Of a stretch of DNA of 34,646 bases, positions 2,781 to 27,710 are shown in pieces; position 1 is the stretch's first letter, and the number at the start of each line of letters is the position of its first letter. The position numbers and the translations under genes were made by a program. The notes beneath the pieces are model-generated. The model did not search any database. It saw only the letters and a program-made list of their open reading frames with translations, and was not told the origin of the DNA. The stretch is from Crocinitomicaceae bacterium (GTDB lineage Bacteria; Bacteroidota; Bacteroidia; Flavobacteriales_D; Crocinitomicaceae), in NCBI GenBank assembly GCA_024643555.1, contig JAHEMQ010000007.1, positions 1 through 34,646 of the forward strand. The letters run 5' to 3'.

Positions 2781-3119
2781 ATGAATTCTTACGAAACTGT
2801 TTTCATTTTAACTCCCGTTTTGTCTGATGATCAGGCAAAGGAAGCAGTACAGAAATTCGAAGGTGAGATCAAATCACTTGGTGGTTCAATCAAGCATTCG
2901 GAGAACTGGGGTTTGCGCAAGTTGGCGTACCCAATCCAGAAAAAATCCACTGGTTTCTACTTTCTAGTAGAATTCCAAGCGGAAGGTAATGTTGTTGCGA
3001 ACTTCGAATTGATGATGAAGCGTGATGAACGAGTTTTACGTTTTTTAACGGTAAAAATGGATGTTGATCATGTGACTTACTCTGAGAAAAGACGTGCAAA
3101 AGCTGGAGCTACTGCCTAA
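2781..3119 (+). CDS. rpsF: 30S ribosomal protein bS6
   Basis: A 112-residue bS6, the primary 16S rRNA-binding protein of the 30S platform, which pairs with bS18. The N terminus ([21 protein letters not shown]) and the [22 protein letters not shown] core (about residues 44-65) are diagnostic. The ending [15 protein letters not shown] fits the family. It lacks the long acidic C-terminal tail seen in E. coli. It is the first gene of rpsF-rpsR-rplI, 28 bases before rpsR, behind the promoter at 2718-2748. Length is normal for the phylum. Confidence 0.97.
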
Positions 3120-3147
3120 CTAATTGTTAACCTTAAAAAATTAAAAG

Positions 3148-3408
3148 ATGTCAAACGATATTCGTTATCTAACCCCGATTAATATTGATATTAAGAAGGA
3201 CAAATACTGCCGTTTCAAGAAAAGCGGAATCAAATTTATTGATTATAAAGATGCTAACTTCTTATTGAAATTAGTAAACGAGCAAGGTAAAATTCTTCCA
3301 CGTCGTATCACTGGTACTTCTGCGAAATACCAAAAGAGAGTCAACAAAGCGATCAAACGTGCACGTCACCTTGCGATCCTTCCATACGTTGGTGATATGT
3401 TGAAATAA
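3148..3408 (+). CDS. rpsR: 30S ribosomal protein bS18
   Basis: An 86-residue bS18, the platform partner of bS6. Diagnostic segments are [15 protein letters not shown] (about residues 22-36), [24 protein letters not shown] (about 40-63) and the basic stretch [19 protein letters not shown] near the C terminus. It sits between rpsF (28-base gap) and rplI (30-base gap), the usual operon order. The gap upstream is AT-rich with no clear Shine-Dalgarno sequence, as expected in this phylum. A single Cys is visible (residue 21). Confidence 0.97.
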
Positions 3409-3438
3409 TCATTTGTTGAACAGAAAAACTGAAAAGTC

Positions 3439-3885
3439 ATGGAAATTATCTTAAAGAAAAACGTTGATAAATTAGGTTACGCAAACGAAATCGTTTCCGT
3501 AAAACCTGGATATGGTCGTAACTTCTTGATTCCTCAAGGATACGCGATTCTAGCTACTGCTAGCGCAAAGAAAGCACACACAGAGATGATGCGTCAAAAA
3601 TCTCACAAAGAATCTAAAATGTTGGCTGAAGCTCAAGAATTGGCTGCTAAAATCGCTGATTTAACCATCACTATCGCTACGAAAGCAGGTGAAAATGGTA
3701 AAATCTTTGGTTCTGTAAACACCGTTCAATTGGCTGATGCGCTACGTGCATTAGGATTTGATATCGATCGTAAATCTTTGAAAATCAAAGATGAGCCTAT
3801 CCGCGAGATTGGTACGTACGAAGTTGAAGCAAACCTTTACAAAGGTGTGAAACAAGGATTCAAATTTGAAGTAGTAAGCGAATAA
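3439..3885 (+). CDS. rplI: 50S ribosomal protein bL9
   Basis: A 148-residue bL9, which binds 23S rRNA domain V and projects from the L1 side of the ribosome. The N-terminal domain MEIILKKNVDKLGYANEIVSVKPGYGRNFLIPQGYA is diagnostic. It is followed by the long connecting helix (about residues 42-76) and the C-terminal domain with GKIFGSVNTVQLADAL (about 88-103). Full length for the family. Last gene of the ribosomal operon; an intrinsic terminator begins 24 bases after the stop. Confidence 0.97.
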   Translation: MEIILKKNVDKLGYANEIVSVKPGYGRNFLIPQGYAILATASAKKAHTEMMRQKSHKESKMLAEAQELAAKIADLTITIATKAGENGKIFGSVNTVQLADALRALGFDIDRKSLKIKDEPIREIGTYEVEANLYKGVKQGFKFEVVSE

Positions 3886-3995: not shown

Positions 3996-4520
3996 ATGGA
4001 AAAAGCTCGCGTTTATTGGTTTTTTGGACTTTCAGGATCTGGAAAGTCGACCCTTTCGGATGCGTTTGCGCTTAGATTGAATGACTTTGGTCAACATGTG
4101 TTTCGATTGGACGGAGATGAATTGAGAAAGGGAGTAAACAAAGACCTAGGATTTTCCCAAGAGGACCGAATGGAGAATGTTCGTCGAGCAGCAGAAATGG
4201 CACAACTAGCCTTGACACAAGGATTCACTGTTGTTGCCTCTTTCATTTCTCCCGAAGAAATACACCGCGAAAAAGTGCGATCTGTTCTGGGTGAATATGT
4301 TGAAATGATTTTTGTCGATGCGAGCATTGACACCTGTCGAACCCGCGATGTGAAAGGATTATATCAACAGGTAGAAAAAGGAAACATCAAGGAATTTACC
4401 GGTGTTTCTGCACCGTTCGAAATGCCCAACATGGAAGAACTTCGAATTTCAACAGATGGAACAACAGTGGAGCATTGCGTGAATGTACTTTGGGAAAAGT
4501 TAATCGTGTCAAGGAAATGA
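3996..4520 (+). CDS. cysC: Adenylylsulfate (APS) kinase
   Basis: Cytosolic enzyme that phosphorylates adenosine 5'-phosphosulfate to PAPS using ATP. It has 174 residues. The P-loop GLSGSGKST is at residues 11-19. Other family segments are FRLDGDELRKGVNKDLGFS (about 36-54), the DVKGLYQQVEKG segment (about 117-128) and FTGVSAPFEMP, equivalent to the usual FTGIDSPYE. It is a stand-alone enzyme, not fused to cysN as in many bacteria. Its stop overlaps the cysD start (ATGA, 4517-4520), so cysC-cysD-cysN are coupled. A partial -7 box (TAACTTTA, 3972-3979) lies just upstream, after the ribosomal terminator, and could drive the operon; no good -33 element is seen. Confidence 0.95.
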   Translation: MEKARVYWFFGLSGSGKSTLSDAFALRLNDFGQHVFRLDGDELRKGVNKDLGFSQEDRMENVRRAAEMAQLALTQGFTVVASFISPEEIHREKVRSVLGEYVEMIFVDASIDTCRTRDVKGLYQQVEKGNIKEFTGVSAPFEMPNMEELRISTDGTTVEHCVNVLWEKLIVSRK

Positions 4521-5419
4521 AGTACCGTTTAAATCATTTACAAGAATTGGAAGCGGAGGCGGTTTATGTCATTCGTGAAGTATTTGCACAATTCCAGCAT
4601 CCATGTATTTTATTTTCGGGAGGAAAAGATTCCATTGTGTTAACACATTTGGCAGCGAAAGCATTTGCGCCCGGGCCGATGCCCTTTTCCTTGTTACACA
4701 TTGATACTGGACACAATTTCCAGGAAACCTTGGACTTTCGCGATGCTTTAGCTGAGCAATTACAGGTGCGCTTGGTTCTTGGAAAGGTAGAAGATTCAAT
4801 TGAACGTCAAACAGTCACCGAAGAATCTGGGCCAAATGCCAATCGCAATCGGGCGCAATCCATAACCTTATTAGAAAGCATGGAACTTCATGGTTTTGAT
4901 GCCGCAATGGGAGGGGGGAGAAGAGACGAAGAAAAAGCACGGGCAAAAGAACGCTTTTTTTCACATCGCGACGCTTTTGGACAATGGGATCCTAAAAATC
5001 AAGGTCCTGAACTATGGAATTTGTATAACGGTCGAAAAAATGAAGGGGAACATTTTCGCATTTTCCCGATTAGTAATTGGACGGAACTAGATATTTGGGA
5101 ATATATTCAACAAGAAGAAATTAAGTTGCCCAGTTTGTATTTTTCACACAGTCGTTTATGCGTCAAACGGAATGGGACCATCTTGGCAGATTCACCTTAC
5201 CTCATTCCACATCGTTTGGATGAAAAAGCCATTTTACAAGTGCGTTTTAGAACCATTGGTGACATGACGATCAGTGGAGCAATGGAGTCCTCGGCAACAT
5301 CTGTCTCGGAAATCATTTCTGAATTAAAGGCAATGAACATCTCGGAGCGAGGTGGAAGAGCAGATGATTTTCGATCGGAATCTTCCATGGAGGACCGTAA
5401 AAAAGAAGGGTATTTTTAA
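4517..5419 (+). CDS. cysD: Sulfate adenylyltransferase subunit 2 (ATP sulfurylase)
   Basis: Catalytic subunit of the heterodimeric ATP sulfurylase, which forms APS from sulfate and ATP with energy from GTP hydrolysis by CysN. From the ATG at 4517 it has 300 residues. The PP-loop SGGKDS is at residues 34-39, followed by HIDTGHNFQE, GFDAAMGGGRRDEEKARAKERFFS and the WDPKNQGPELWNLYNG and PISNWTELDIWEYI segments, all classic CysD. I chose 4517 over an upstream in-frame ATG at 4475 because the former gives the family N terminus (MKYRLNHLQELEAE) and an ATGA overlap with cysC. The stop shares a base with the cysN start (TAATG). Confidence 0.96.
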   Translation: MKYRLNHLQELEAEAVYVIREVFAQFQHPCILFSGGKDSIVLTHLAAKAFAPGPMPFSLLHIDTGHNFQETLDFRDALAEQLQVRLVLGKVEDSIERQTVTEESGPNANRNRAQSITLLESMELHGFDAAMGGGRRDEEKARAKERFFSHRDAFGQWDPKNQGPELWNLYNGRKNEGEHFRIFPISNWTELDIWEYIQQEEIKLPSLYFSHSRLCVKRNGTILADSPYLIPHRLDEKAILQVRFRTIGDMTISGAMESSATSVSEIISELKAMNISERGGRADDFRSESSMEDRKKEGYF

Positions 5420-6672
5420 TGAGTGGCACAAAAGATATATTGCGTTTTACAACCGCAGGTAGTGTGGATGACGGAAAAAGCACCTTGATTGGACGCTTGT
5501 TATTGGACAGTAAAAATATTACACTGGATCAATTGGAACATGTCCAACGCATCAGTGAACGAAAGGGAATGGAAGGTATCGATTTGTCCTTGTTTACCGA
5601 TGGACTAAAAGATGAACGTGCGCAAGGAATCACCATTGATGTGGCCTATCGCTATTTTCAAACGGAAAAAAGAAAATTCATTATTGCAGACACACCTGGA
5701 CATTTGCAATATACGCGCAATATGGTGACTGGAGCTTCCACTGCTAACGCGGCTGTGATCTTGGTTGATGCGCGTAAGGGTGTCGTTGAGCAAACGAAAA
5801 GACACAGTTTTATTGCTTCCTTATTGCACATTCAACATTTAATTGTGTGCGTCAATAAAATGGATTTGGTTGACTTTGATCAAACTTGTTTTGAAAACAT
5901 TGTGGCCTCGTTTCGTGATTTCGCTGCAAAATTGGACATTGTCGATGTACAGTTTATTCCCGTTTCAGCACTGAAAGGGGATCAAGTGGTGGAACGTTCT
6001 GCGAACATGTCTTGGTATCAAGGTTCAACATTGTTACATACCTTAGAAAATCTTTCGGTGGCGAATGATGTCAACCAAATCGACCTGCGCTTCCCTGTCC
6101 AACACGCCATACGGGTTGATTCAGAAAATATGAGGGATTATCGTGCTTATGCTGGACAATTATCGAGTGGAATCATTCGTGTCGGTGATGAAGTCTTGGT
6201 CATGCCAAGCGCGTCCAAATCTGTTGTAAAGTCTATTCAAGCAATGAATGGACCAGTAACAGAGGCGTTTGCGCCACAATCTATTTCCATCGAATTATCG
6301 GATGACTTGGATATTTCTCGCGGTGACATGATTGTAAAGCCCATGAATCAAGCGGAACCATTGACGCAATTTTCTGCTATACTTTGTTGGATGAGTAACA
6401 AGCCATTTGTTGCTGCAAAAAAATACCTGATTCGTCACACGACAAGAGAGGCTAAATTGCGCATAAAATCCATCCAATACGTTTATGATTTAAATGCATT
6501 AAAACGGATGGAAGGTATTCAGGAATTGGCGATGAACGACATTGCACGTGTGGATGTGCATGTATCTGCTCCTATATTTGTAGACTCCTTCAGAAGGAAT
6601 AAAAGCACCGGTTCGTTTATTGTCATTGATGAACAGACGAATGAAACCGTTGCGGCGGGAATGATCTTTTAA
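5419..6672 (+). CDS. cysN: Sulfate adenylyltransferase subunit 1 (GTPase)
   Basis: Regulatory GTPase subunit of ATP sulfurylase, a translation-factor-type GTPase of 417 residues. The G1 loop GSVDDGKST is at residues 14-22; DTPGH (G3) and NKMDLVD (G4) follow, then EF-Tu-like domains 2 and 3. The protein ends after domain 3 with no APS kinase extension, which agrees with the separate cysC. It starts inside the cysD stop (TAATG at 5417-5421). The stop overlaps the stop of convergent hldD by four bases (6669-6672). No PAPS reductase or sulfite reductase gene is in the visible neighbourhood, so PAPS from this operon could serve assimilation elsewhere or sulfation. Confidence 0.96.
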   Translation: MSGTKDILRFTTAGSVDDGKSTLIGRLLLDSKNITLDQLEHVQRISERKGMEGIDLSLFTDGLKDERAQGITIDVAYRYFQTEKRKFIIADTPGHLQYTRNMVTGASTANAAVILVDARKGVVEQTKRHSFIASLLHIQHLIVCVNKMDLVDFDQTCFENIVASFRDFAAKLDIVDVQFIPVSALKGDQVVERSANMSWYQGSTLLHTLENLSVANDVNQIDLRFPVQHAIRVDSENMRDYRAYAGQLSSGIIRVGDEVLVMPSASKSVVKSIQAMNGPVTEAFAPQSISIELSDDLDISRGDMIVKPMNQAEPLTQFSAILCWMSNKPFVAAKKYLIRHTTREAKLRIKSIQYVYDLNALKRMEGIQELAMNDIARVDVHVSAPIFVDSFRRNKSTGSFIVIDEQTNETVAAGMIF

Positions 6673-24583: not shown

Positions 24584-25981
24584 ATGTTCGATGACGACGA
24601 AGAAGAATTTGCGGATGGCAGTTTGAATGAAGATATCGAACGCTTTGAAGCACATTTACAGGGAAATACCTTACCTTTCATGGATAGTGATCGCATCGAG
24701 AACATCATCGATCATTATTTAGTTCAAGGTCAATATCAAAAAGCAAAGACTGCATCCGAATTAGGAATGTATCAGTTTGCTTATAATTTAGTTTTTCAAT
24801 TGCGAAAAGCGCAGTCCTTGGGTGGACTCGGCGTTTTAAATGAAGCCTTAGAAATTGTTCAAGGATTGGAAAAAAACATGGAGCCTTCAGCGGAGCTGTT
24901 TTTAACGAAAGCATCCTTACATTCTCAATTACGCGATCACAAAAACGCCATTAAGTATTTCCGTTTATCCATCGAATATTCGGAAGCCAATGAGACTGAT
25001 TTTATCTACCTCGATATTGCCATTGAATACCAGCGATTGAGGATGTATCGCGAAGCAGTGGAGGTTCTGAAAGAGGCATTGCGCGTGAACAAATACAACG
25101 AAAGTGCTTTGTATGAACTTGGACGTTGTTACGACATGATGGGGGATAGCAAGGAAGCGGTGAAATCCTATACGGAATTCATTGATGAGCAACCCTATTC
25201 TGCCACTGCTTGGTACAACTTAGGGAATGCTTACAGTAAGTTGGAGGATTTCGAACGTGCCGTTTGGGCCTATGATTATGCCATATTGATCAACGAAGAG
25301 TTTGGTCCAGCACATTTCAATTTGGGCAATTCTTATTTGTCCTTGGAGAAATATCATAAAGCCATTGAACACTTCGAATTATGTCAAAAATGTGATGGTG
25401 ACGACGCGATGGCCATGTGTTACATCGGTGAGGCATATGAGCAGCTCAACGAATTTGATTTGTCCAAACACTATTACAAGAAGAGCATTGAAATGGAACC
25501 GATGTTGCCCGAAGCATGGCTTGGACTTGGAATCGTAGAGGACCTACTTGGAAACACGCGGGAAGGAATTGTATTGATTCAAAAAGCACTTGACTTTGAT
25601 CCAGAAAATGCGGGGATTTACCACGTCCTTGCAGGTGCATACGAAAAGTTAGACTTGCGTGAAGAAACATGTTTCCACTATGAGAAATCCTTGGAGTTGA
25701 ATCCTGGAGATGAAGAATGTCTTTCCGATTACATCGAATTTTTGTCTGCTGAGTCGCCCTTACAAGCATACCAAGTCTTGCAAACGTATTTATTTGGTGA
25801 ACGTGAAAACGGCATTGCACGCGTTTTAGAAGTTAATTTACAGTGGATGCTCGGACAACGAGCGGAAGCGATTCGGCTGTTTACCGATTGTTTGGAACAG
25901 GATTCCATCAAAGCAAAAACCATATTTGAAATAAATCCAAAATTATTGGATGATCATGATTTTTTAAATTTATCTGAATAA
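24584..25981 (+). CDS. Tetratricopeptide repeat protein
   Basis: A 465-residue soluble protein built almost entirely of TPR helices. The acidic N terminus (MFDDDEEEFADG) is followed by about ten 34-residue repeats from about residue 65 to 420. The most regular are SALYELGRCYDMMGDSKEAVKSY, TAWYNLGNAYSKLEDFERAVWAY and PAHFNLGNSYLSLEKYHKAIEHF. No signal peptide or membrane segment is seen, so it is probably a cytosolic scaffold. It is followed after three bases by the ComA-family gene, suggesting joint action or co-regulation. A partial -7 box (TAATTTTA, 24560-24567) precedes it. The partner is unknown. Confidence 0.9.
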   Translation: MFDDDEEEFADGSLNEDIERFEAHLQGNTLPFMDSDRIENIIDHYLVQGQYQKAKTASELGMYQFAYNLVFQLRKAQSLGGLGVLNEALEIVQGLEKNMEPSAELFLTKASLHSQLRDHKNAIKYFRLSIEYSEANETDFIYLDIAIEYQRLRMYREAVEVLKEALRVNKYNESALYELGRCYDMMGDSKEAVKSYTEFIDEQPYSATAWYNLGNAYSKLEDFERAVWAYDYAILINEEFGPAHFNLGNSYLSLEKYHKAIEHFELCQKCDGDDAMAMCYIGEAYEQLNEFDLSKHYYKKSIEMEPMLPEAWLGLGIVEDLLGNTREGIVLIQKALDFDPENAGIYHVLAGAYEKLDLREETCFHYEKSLELNPGDEECLSDYIEFLSAESPLQAYQVLQTYLFGERENGIARVLEVNLQWMLGQRAEAIRLFTDCLEQDSIKAKTIFEINPKLLDDHDFLNLSE

Positions 25982-25984
25982 ATA

Positions 25985-26809
25985 ATGAATTTTAACCTCA
26001 CTTTTATACCAAAGAGAAGCGAAAAACCAAGAAACAAAGGTGTTACCATGATGATGGATAAAGGCTTGGGTTTACGTGAAACGGAGCACTTTATCGAAGC
26101 TTCTGGACATTTAACAGACATCGTTAAATTCGGTTTCGGAACTTCCTACGTGACAAAAAACTTGGAAGAGAAAATCGCCATGTACAAGTCTGCGGGCATT
26201 CGTCCCTATTTCGGTGGAACACTTTTCGAAGCATTTTATGCTCGAGGGAAATTCAACGAGTACAAAAAAGTGATGGACAAATTCAAATTGGACCTGGTAG
26301 AGGTTTCTGATGGCTCTATCATTATTCCTCACGAAGAAAAATGCCAGCTGATTCATGAATTGTCTAAAGATATGACCGTAATGTCCGAAGTAGGTTCAAA
26401 GGATTCAGGAATTTTAATTTCTCCTGCAAAATGGGTGAGAAACATGAAAGGTGAATTGGATGCAGGAAGTTGGAAAGTCATTGCTGAAGGACGCGAAGCT
26501 GGAAATGTGGGTGTTTTTCGTCCAAATGGAACGGCGCACACCATGTTAATTAATCGCATCATTGCAAGCGTGAAGCCAGAGGATATTCTATGGGAAGCGC
26601 CACAGAAAAACCAACAGGTTTGGTTCATAAAGTTGTTCGGCGCCGAGGTAAATCTTGGCAATATTGCACCAAATGACATGATTCCTTTGGAATGTTTGCG
26701 TTTGGGATTGCGTGGAGATACCTTCTTCGATTTTCTACCAAAATCCTATGCTGATCGCTTGAAACAAGTCAACGATGAGGAGGATGAAGTCGACGAAGAC
26801 GACCATTAA
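25985..26809 (+). CDS. Phosphosulfolactate synthase (ComA family)
   Basis: A 274-residue TIM-barrel protein of the ComA family, whose founding archaeal member adds sulfite to phosphoenolpyruvate to form (2R)-phospho-3-sulfolactate. Visible segments are GVTMMMDKGLGLRETEHFIE (about 19-38), DIVKFGFGTSYV, YFGGTLFEAFYARGKFNEY, DLVEVSDGSIIIPHEEK and MSEVGSKDSG, all conserved in the family. It ends in a highly acidic tail (NDEEDEVDEDDH). In methanogens the product leads to coenzyme M; in Bacteroidota the downstream use is not established, and sulfonate lipids are one possibility. It is the second gene of TPR-ComA-WD40 and overlaps the start region of the WD40 gene. No comB or comC homologue is visible here. 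Confidence 0.88.
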   Translation: MNFNLTFIPKRSEKPRNKGVTMMMDKGLGLRETEHFIEASGHLTDIVKFGFGTSYVTKNLEEKIAMYKSAGIRPYFGGTLFEAFYARGKFNEYKKVMDKFKLDLVEVSDGSIIIPHEEKCQLIHELSKDMTVMSEVGSKDSGILISPAKWVRNMKGELDAGSWKVIAEGREAGNVGVFRPNGTAHTMLINRIIASVKPEDILWEAPQKNQQVWFIKLFGAEVNLGNIAPNDMIPLECLRLGLRGDTFFDFLPKSYADRLKQVNDEEDEVDEDDH

Positions 26810-27710
26810 TCCCTTGTATCACCTGTCTTTGCAGCATGAGTGCGCCGGACATTCCGGTCCTGTTTATGCCGTCGATGGGGATGAGTCTTTCATTTACACC
26901 GCTTCGGCTGATAAATTCGTTACGCGTTGGAATCGTGAAACGGGTAAACAAGATGCATTCGCCATTCGCTGTGAATCAAGTCCTTTTGCGATTCGTTTAT
27001 TGGACCAAAAATCGATCATTGTACTTGGATTGTCGAACGGACACATGCATGTCATTGACGTACAAAAACGAAAGGAACTGCACTTATTCACTCAACACAA
27101 GGTAGGCATCTTTGCGATGCACGAGGACGAAAAAAGGCAGCACTTGTTTGTTGGAGACGCGGATGGTTTTTTATCTGTTTGGAATACCCATACTTTTCAA
27201 TTAAAATTAATCATTCCCTTGTGCTCTAGTAAAATTCGAGCGATACATTCATTAGGAGAATCCCGCATTGCTGTTGCAACGAATGATGGAGAAATCATTG
27301 TCCTTGAAACTGAATTCATGAACGAAATCCATCGGTTTTACGCACATGAAGGTGGCACTTCAGCTTTCTATTATGATTTGAATTCTGGGGAATTAATCAG
27401 CGGGGGTAAAGATGGCATGCTGCGTTGGTGGAAGGATGTTGATTTTCAAATCATTCGTGCGTTACCAGCCCACAAAGGTGCTATTTATGGGATTCAATCC
27501 ATTGATGCACAGCATTTCGTTTCCATCAGCCGAGATAAGTCCATCAAGGTTTGGGATAACATGACGCAAAAAGTCATTCAGAAAGTGGAAGCAAAAAAAC
27601 TCGGACACCGTCACTCCGTGAATGCTCTTTGGTCGGATCAAAAGGGTACAATTGCGACTGTTGGGGACGATCATTTGCTTCGCGTTTTTCGTTGGATGTC
27701 ACAGTTGTAA
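26775..27710 (+). CDS. WD40 repeat beta-propeller protein
   Basis: A propeller of up to 311 residues with six to seven WD40-type blades: GHSGPVYAVDGDESFIYTAS, HKVGIFAMHEDEKRQHLFVG, SKIRAIHSLGESRIAVATN, HEGGTSAFYYDLNSGELISG, HKGAIYGIQSIDAQHFVSIS and GHRHSVNALWSDQKGTIATV. Blade ends carry WNRET, VWNTH, WWKDV and VWDNM. It has no signal peptide and is probably cytosolic. The start is uncertain: ATG at 26775 or 26784 overlaps the end of the ComA gene, and a TTG at 26814 would begin right after its stop. Close linkage to the TPR and ComA genes suggests one functional unit. WD40 and TPR proteins both act as binding platforms; the ligand is unknown. Confidence 0.85.
   Translation: MRRMKSTKTTINPLYHLSLQHECAGHSGPVYAVDGDESFIYTASADKFVTRWNRETGKQDAFAIRCESSPFAIRLLDQKSIIVLGLSNGHMHVIDVQKRKELHLFTQHKVGIFAMHEDEKRQHLFVGDADGFLSVWNTHTFQLKLIIPLCSSKIRAIHSLGESRIAVATNDGEIIVLETEFMNEIHRFYAHEGGTSAFYYDLNSGELISGGKDGMLRWWKDVDFQIIRALPAHKGAIYGIQSIDAQHFVSISRDKSIKVWDNMTQKVIQKVEAKKLGHRHSVNALWSDQKGTIATVGDDHLLRVFRWMSQL

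Follow-up and report, generated by a model that had tools for sequence, protein, structure and literature searches.

A ComA-type phosphosulfolactate synthase gene widespread in Bacteroidia and its possible link to sulfonolipid synthesis

The ComA locus

The window, a 34,646 bp stretch of DNA from a Crocinitomicaceae bacterium, carries a ComA-family gene between genes for a TPR-repeat protein and a WD40 beta-propeller protein. The features referred to below are as follows.

3996..6672, + strand: cysC-cysD-cysN (APS kinase and ATP sulfurylase subunits), sulfate activation, ~18 kb upstream of the ComA cluster
24584..25981, + strand: TPR-repeat protein, 465 aa, conserved PYSxTAWYNLG motif, neighbour of comA across the class
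25985..26809, + strand: ComA-family phosphosulfolactate synthase, 274 aa, PF02679 match of 300 bits
26771..26806, + strand: acidic tail at the ComA C-terminus, about ...VNDEEDEVDEDDH, a typical Crocinitomicaceae trait, overlapping the start of the WD40 gene
26775..27710, + strand: WD40 beta-propeller protein of 311 aa, beginning at either 26775 or 26784

The tight packing originally described for the three genes was borne out, as all three open reading frames lie on the + strand, with a gap of 3 bp between TPR and ComA and an overlap of 35 bp between ComA and WD40. Ribosomal protein genes S6-S18-L9 are located at 2781-3885 of the window, directly upstream of cysC.

The match of ComA to PF02679 (gathering score 25.2) covers positions 1-243 of the 243 in the model, and the closest solved structures are 1u83 (B. 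subtilis YitD, 173 bits) and 1qwg (M. jannaschii ComA, 157 bits). A comparison with the archaeal ComA structure, proposed along with the original prediction, came out in favour of an intact enzyme as far as conservation goes: the residues common to 1qwg and 1u83 are kept (D25, K48, GGTLFE, E106, EVGxK139, E168, R170, E171, EAPxK208, N223, N226 and GLRxDT), with retained blocks that include EGREAG, EAPQK and GLRGDTF. The score against the archaeal ComA equivalog TIGR03849, 250.2 bits, is below the cut-off of 280 bits, and by that model the protein is therefore a family member and not an archaeal ortholog. Judged by its sequence, it is a well supported case of a genuine, intact, full-length ComA-type phosphosulfolactate synthase. 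ComA was found in 97 of 100 family genomes, in all 24 genera of the Crocinitomicaceae, in 209 of the 247 genomes sampled from the class Bacteroidia, and in 98 of 395 phylum genomes, where one more listed match fell below the family cut-off. Several genomes in the phylum families f24, f36 and f14 carry 2-3 ComA paralogues each, one kind having a match about 12 residues longer. A literature search gave no functional study of Bacteroidota ComA or of sulfolactate synthesis in Bacteroidia.

Neighbouring genes and the acidic tail

The TPR gene lies directly 5' of ComA in 79 of 80 named loci and adjoins it in 100 of the 102 class genomes with both positions given; this clustering is not chance. The same gene is present in 216 of 247 class genomes, ComA-less families included, and is retained in ComA-less genomes of families f6 and f66. 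In the ComA-less genome G101 it stands 12 bp from aroE (L191:5705-7854), as if comA had been cleanly excised. Its survival after the loss of ComA means that TPR does not belong to ComA alone and serves a separate function; a dedicated TPR-ComA partnership was therefore rejected.

WD40 is found directly 3' of ComA only in Crocinitomicaceae. Outside this family, and in Crocinitomix, a rhodanese, a polyprenyl-phosphate flippase-type gene and aroE, or some of the three, commonly come after ComA; the WD40 gene takes the place of these genes in 24 of 30 family loci (a WD40 match was seen in 34 of the 80 named loci), and is thus a Crocinitomicaceae-specific addition that displaced an older tail made up of rhodanese, polyprenyl-phosphate flippase and aroE. 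A single-domain rhodanese lies downstream of ComA in approximately 40 of the 80 named loci, with the C..G active loop intact in all 40, and is absent from nearly all Crocinitomicaceae loci. The slot between rhodanese and aroE (loci L144-L190) is occupied by DUF368/PopT in 33 cases or DedA/VTT in 9, never by both; the two are polyprenyl-phosphate flippase-type families, and this has the appearance of a non-orthologous exchange.

It had been suggested that the TPR and WD40 proteins tether the enzyme and that its acidic tail is a docking site. The last 12 residues of ComA contain a mean of 7.2 D/E at loci with WD40 alongside, 4.3 in family members that lack an adjacent WD40 and 2.1 in more distant loci (p 7e-7). 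A docking site is compatible with acidity that is richest where WD40 adjoins, but the comparison is confounded by phylogeny, which may explain the tail difference given that tails are still moderately acidic in relatives in which WD40 has been relocated or was not observed. The tethering idea itself fared poorly. That TPR and WD40 form a dedicated scaffold holding ComA by its tail would agree with the tight gene order and with the tail being most acidic beside WD40, yet TPR is retained without ComA, WD40 is confined to one family and the tail difference tracks phylogeny, so that such a scaffold is improbable. Tethering by TPR is unlikely; WD40 is a possible tether.

Co-occurrence of ComA with ComB and CFAT

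The window contains neither comB nor comC, as the original prediction of a cluster without coenzyme M genes had it, but this does not extend to the genome. A comB gene (PF04029, 254 bits) is present at G000:C54:4784-5416, and had been missed because it is located on a different contig; its product scored 206 against an NCBIfam ComB equivalog cut-off of 330. No ComC-type gene (PF02615) was matched in the source genome, which is 86% complete, and coenzyme M synthesis was set aside on that account. At L105:4610-6422, comB runs into a gene that resembles S1/P1 nuclease or zinc phospholipase C, a pairing seen in 4 of 6 family loci, and none of the ComB neighbourhoods at those six loci contained pathway genes.

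ComB was found in 94 of 100 family genomes. Among 247 Bacteroidia genomes, 199 have both ComA and ComB, 10 ComA only, 5 ComB only and 33 neither (15 discordant; phi 0.78, Fisher p ~7e-27, a value that is optimistic, like those for ComA co-occurrence below, as genomes of the class are related and their independence is overstated). Just two of the 10 genomes with ComA only, G540 and G568, are at least 90% complete. Across the phylum ComB accompanies ComA in 97 of 98 genomes, and outside the class ComB also occurs without ComA. The ComA/ComB pairing is well supported, and from this co-occurrence the likely product is (R)-sulfolactate; that the two proteins make sulfolactate is very probable.

The source genome also has a PLP-dependent acyltransferase (L201:1360-2604) whose scores against CFAT-type structures were 605 and 584 bits, the latter for a structure that bears the name cysteate-C-fatty acyltransferase, vs 237 bits against serine palmitoyltransferase. 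By these scores, the genome encodes the enzyme that opens sulfonolipid synthesis, cysteate fatty-acyltransferase (CFAT). A search for CFAT was carried out over 198 class genomes, with matches at E <= 1e-90 taken as CFAT and those at E ~1e-64 to 1e-76 as related enzymes. Both ComA and CFAT were found in 159 genomes, ComA only in 8, CFAT only in 15 and neither in 16 (p ~8e-10, again optimistic); at a completeness of at least 90% the corresponding numbers were 141, 4, 13 and 16 (p 1e-11, likewise). CFAT is missing from about half of the ComA-less genomes vs 5% of those with ComA. In family f3, G101 is without ComA, ComB and CFAT, and in family f92, G616 is without ComA and CFAT, while the relatives of each retain them. 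The genomes with CFAT only belong to f5, f6, f7, f107 and a few other families. CFAT thus tracks ComA across the class, less strictly than ComB does. The sulfonate link drawn in the original prediction is favoured by both co-occurrences and was in that sense partly upheld; as for the three-gene set following sulfonolipid capacity, CFAT tracks ComA and TPR adjoins it class-wide, but WD40 does so in one family only.

Cysteate supply and the fate of sulfolactate

The published source of cysteate for sulfonolipids is a CapA-type cysteate synthase. In Chryseobacterium gleum, cysteate synthase and CFAT are the first two sulfonolipid enzymes (PMC11211663). In the ComA-less genomes G128 and G111 a cysteate synthase lies directly upstream of CFAT (NF053679 CapA, 617 and 547 bits, of which only the former exceeds the cut-off of 600 bits), in agreement with the consecutive accessions of Capnocytophaga CapA and CapB (PMC12927429). 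CapA was beside CFAT in only 2 of 9 inspected loci of ComA-less genomes with CFAT. Among the adjacent genes of 11 CFAT loci from genomes with ComA, no cysteate synthase was found, nor was there a CapA-like gene in 1.2 Mb (~55%) of the genus relative G022. Labilibaculum euxinus makes capnine lipids with a CapA homologue just 32% identical, as against 61% for CapB (PMC12927429), and the low CapA identity would fit a different source of cysteate.

These observations suggest a route in which ComA would add sulfite to phosphoenolpyruvate, giving phosphosulfolactate, and the unlinked ComB phosphatase would free (R)-sulfolactate. Oxidation to sulfopyruvate, for which an ordinary malate-dehydrogenase-like enzyme would suffice, and transamination would then yield cysteate, which CFAT would join to a fatty acid at the start of sulfonolipid synthesis. 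Interconversion of sulfolactate, sulfopyruvate and cysteate is within the reach of malate dehydrogenase and aspartate aminotransferase, and a dedicated ComC may therefore be dispensable. The ComA/ComB route would replace the CapA of other Bacteroidota, with TPR as a class-wide neighbour having a separate role and WD40 as a family-specific addition. We regard the route as a whole as tentative, its chances being a little short of even; the individual reactions, the conversion of sulfolactate into cysteate and the use of the product in lipids are all inferred. A supply of sulfonolipid cysteate by ComA and ComB in lineages without CapA is the reading we favour, though it is about as tentative, or slightly more so, and it is possible, though we would not presume it, that most Bacteroidia make their sulfonolipid cysteate in this way from phosphoenolpyruvate and sulfite, with only CapA lineages using cysteate synthase. 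Counting against the sulfonolipid explanation are the 15 genomes with CFAT and no ComA, the rarity of CapA next to CFAT in such genomes (2 of 9 loci), the 8 with ComA and no CFAT, the lack of a PF02615 match in the source genome, scores below the equivalog cut-offs, and the missing PF01507 gene of two genus members, which bears on the supply of sulfite.

As to the sulfite, the only PF01507 matches in the source genome were the cysD of the window and one weak match, with no PAPS-reductase-type gene found. In G022 and G053, which belong to the same genus, PF01507 gave no match at all, though ComA and ComB are present, and sulfite there is therefore probably not derived from PAPS reduction. PAPS from the cysC-cysD-cysN route may serve sulfotransferases.

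A serious contender, which we consider possible but doubtful, is that (R)-sulfolactate made by ComA and ComB is an end product (a solute, a store or an excreted sulfonate), and that the correlation with CFAT reflects common ancestry and genome reduction in common. In B. subtilis, yitCD and yitBA-yisZ are late sporulation operons, both with an inferred part in making phosphosulfolactate, and 5% of the dry weight of spores is sulfolactate (PMC517825); this precedent, the ComA/ComB pairing, the missing ComC and the imperfect CFAT correlation would all suit an end product. The joint disappearance of ComA and CFAT within f3 and f92 and the far more frequent absence of CFAT from ComA-less genomes argue against it. 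It is unlikely that ComA serves as a sink, trapping as sulfolactate the toxic sulfite that arises when cysteine, thiosulfate or persulfides are broken down, perhaps with the neighbouring rhodanese as an intermediary. The intact C..G loop of the rhodanese in about half of the named loci, and the retention of ComA in genus members without a PF01507 gene, are in keeping with a sink, but hardly any Crocinitomicaceae locus retains rhodanese, trapping would cost phosphoenolpyruvate, and the CFAT correlation is not predicted. Least credible is a ComA paralogue acting on another substrate, with no sulfonate made (cf. plant Hsa32): the score below the archaeal equivalog cut-off would allow this, whereas the near-obligate partnership with ComB and the intact conserved residues make it very unlikely.

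The proposed route from sulfolactate to sulfonolipid has parallels in known systems. The archaeal coenzyme M pathway ComA-ComB-ComC (Methanocaldococcus jannaschii, 1qwg) uses the same ComA and ComB families with the same conserved residues, but here no PF02615 ComC was found in the source genome, the genes are scattered and scores are below the archaeal equivalog cut-offs, and coenzyme M is not expected. B. subtilis yitCD, which provides the closest solved homologue, is likewise a ComA and ComB pair giving sulfolactate (the predicted product here), whereas in the non-sporulating Bacteroidia the genes are unlinked and ComA lies in a TPR/WD40 or TPR/rhodanese/flippase/aroE context. CFAT is shared with the CapA-CapB(CFAT)-CapC sulfonolipid pathway of Capnocytophaga, Chryseobacterium and Alistipes, from which the present system would differ in its putative cysteate source, ComA/ComB and not CapA. 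In methanogens, ComABC and cysteate synthase are alternative sulfonate entries, the latter being the route to coenzyme M in Methanosarcina; the same two entry routes appear to substitute for each other in Bacteroidia, where the sulfonate would end up as the headgroup of a lipid.

Sulfonolipids are important in gliding, in gut inflammation and in the development of choanoflagellates. The co-occurrence of ComA, ComB and CFAT suggests, at the level of gene content, a second way to make their sulfur headgroup, and if most of the class relied on ComA/ComB for cysteate, both the map of the pathway and predictions from genomes of which organisms are producers would change. Even without a role in lipids, sulfolactate synthesis appears to be ancient and nearly universal in Bacteroidia.
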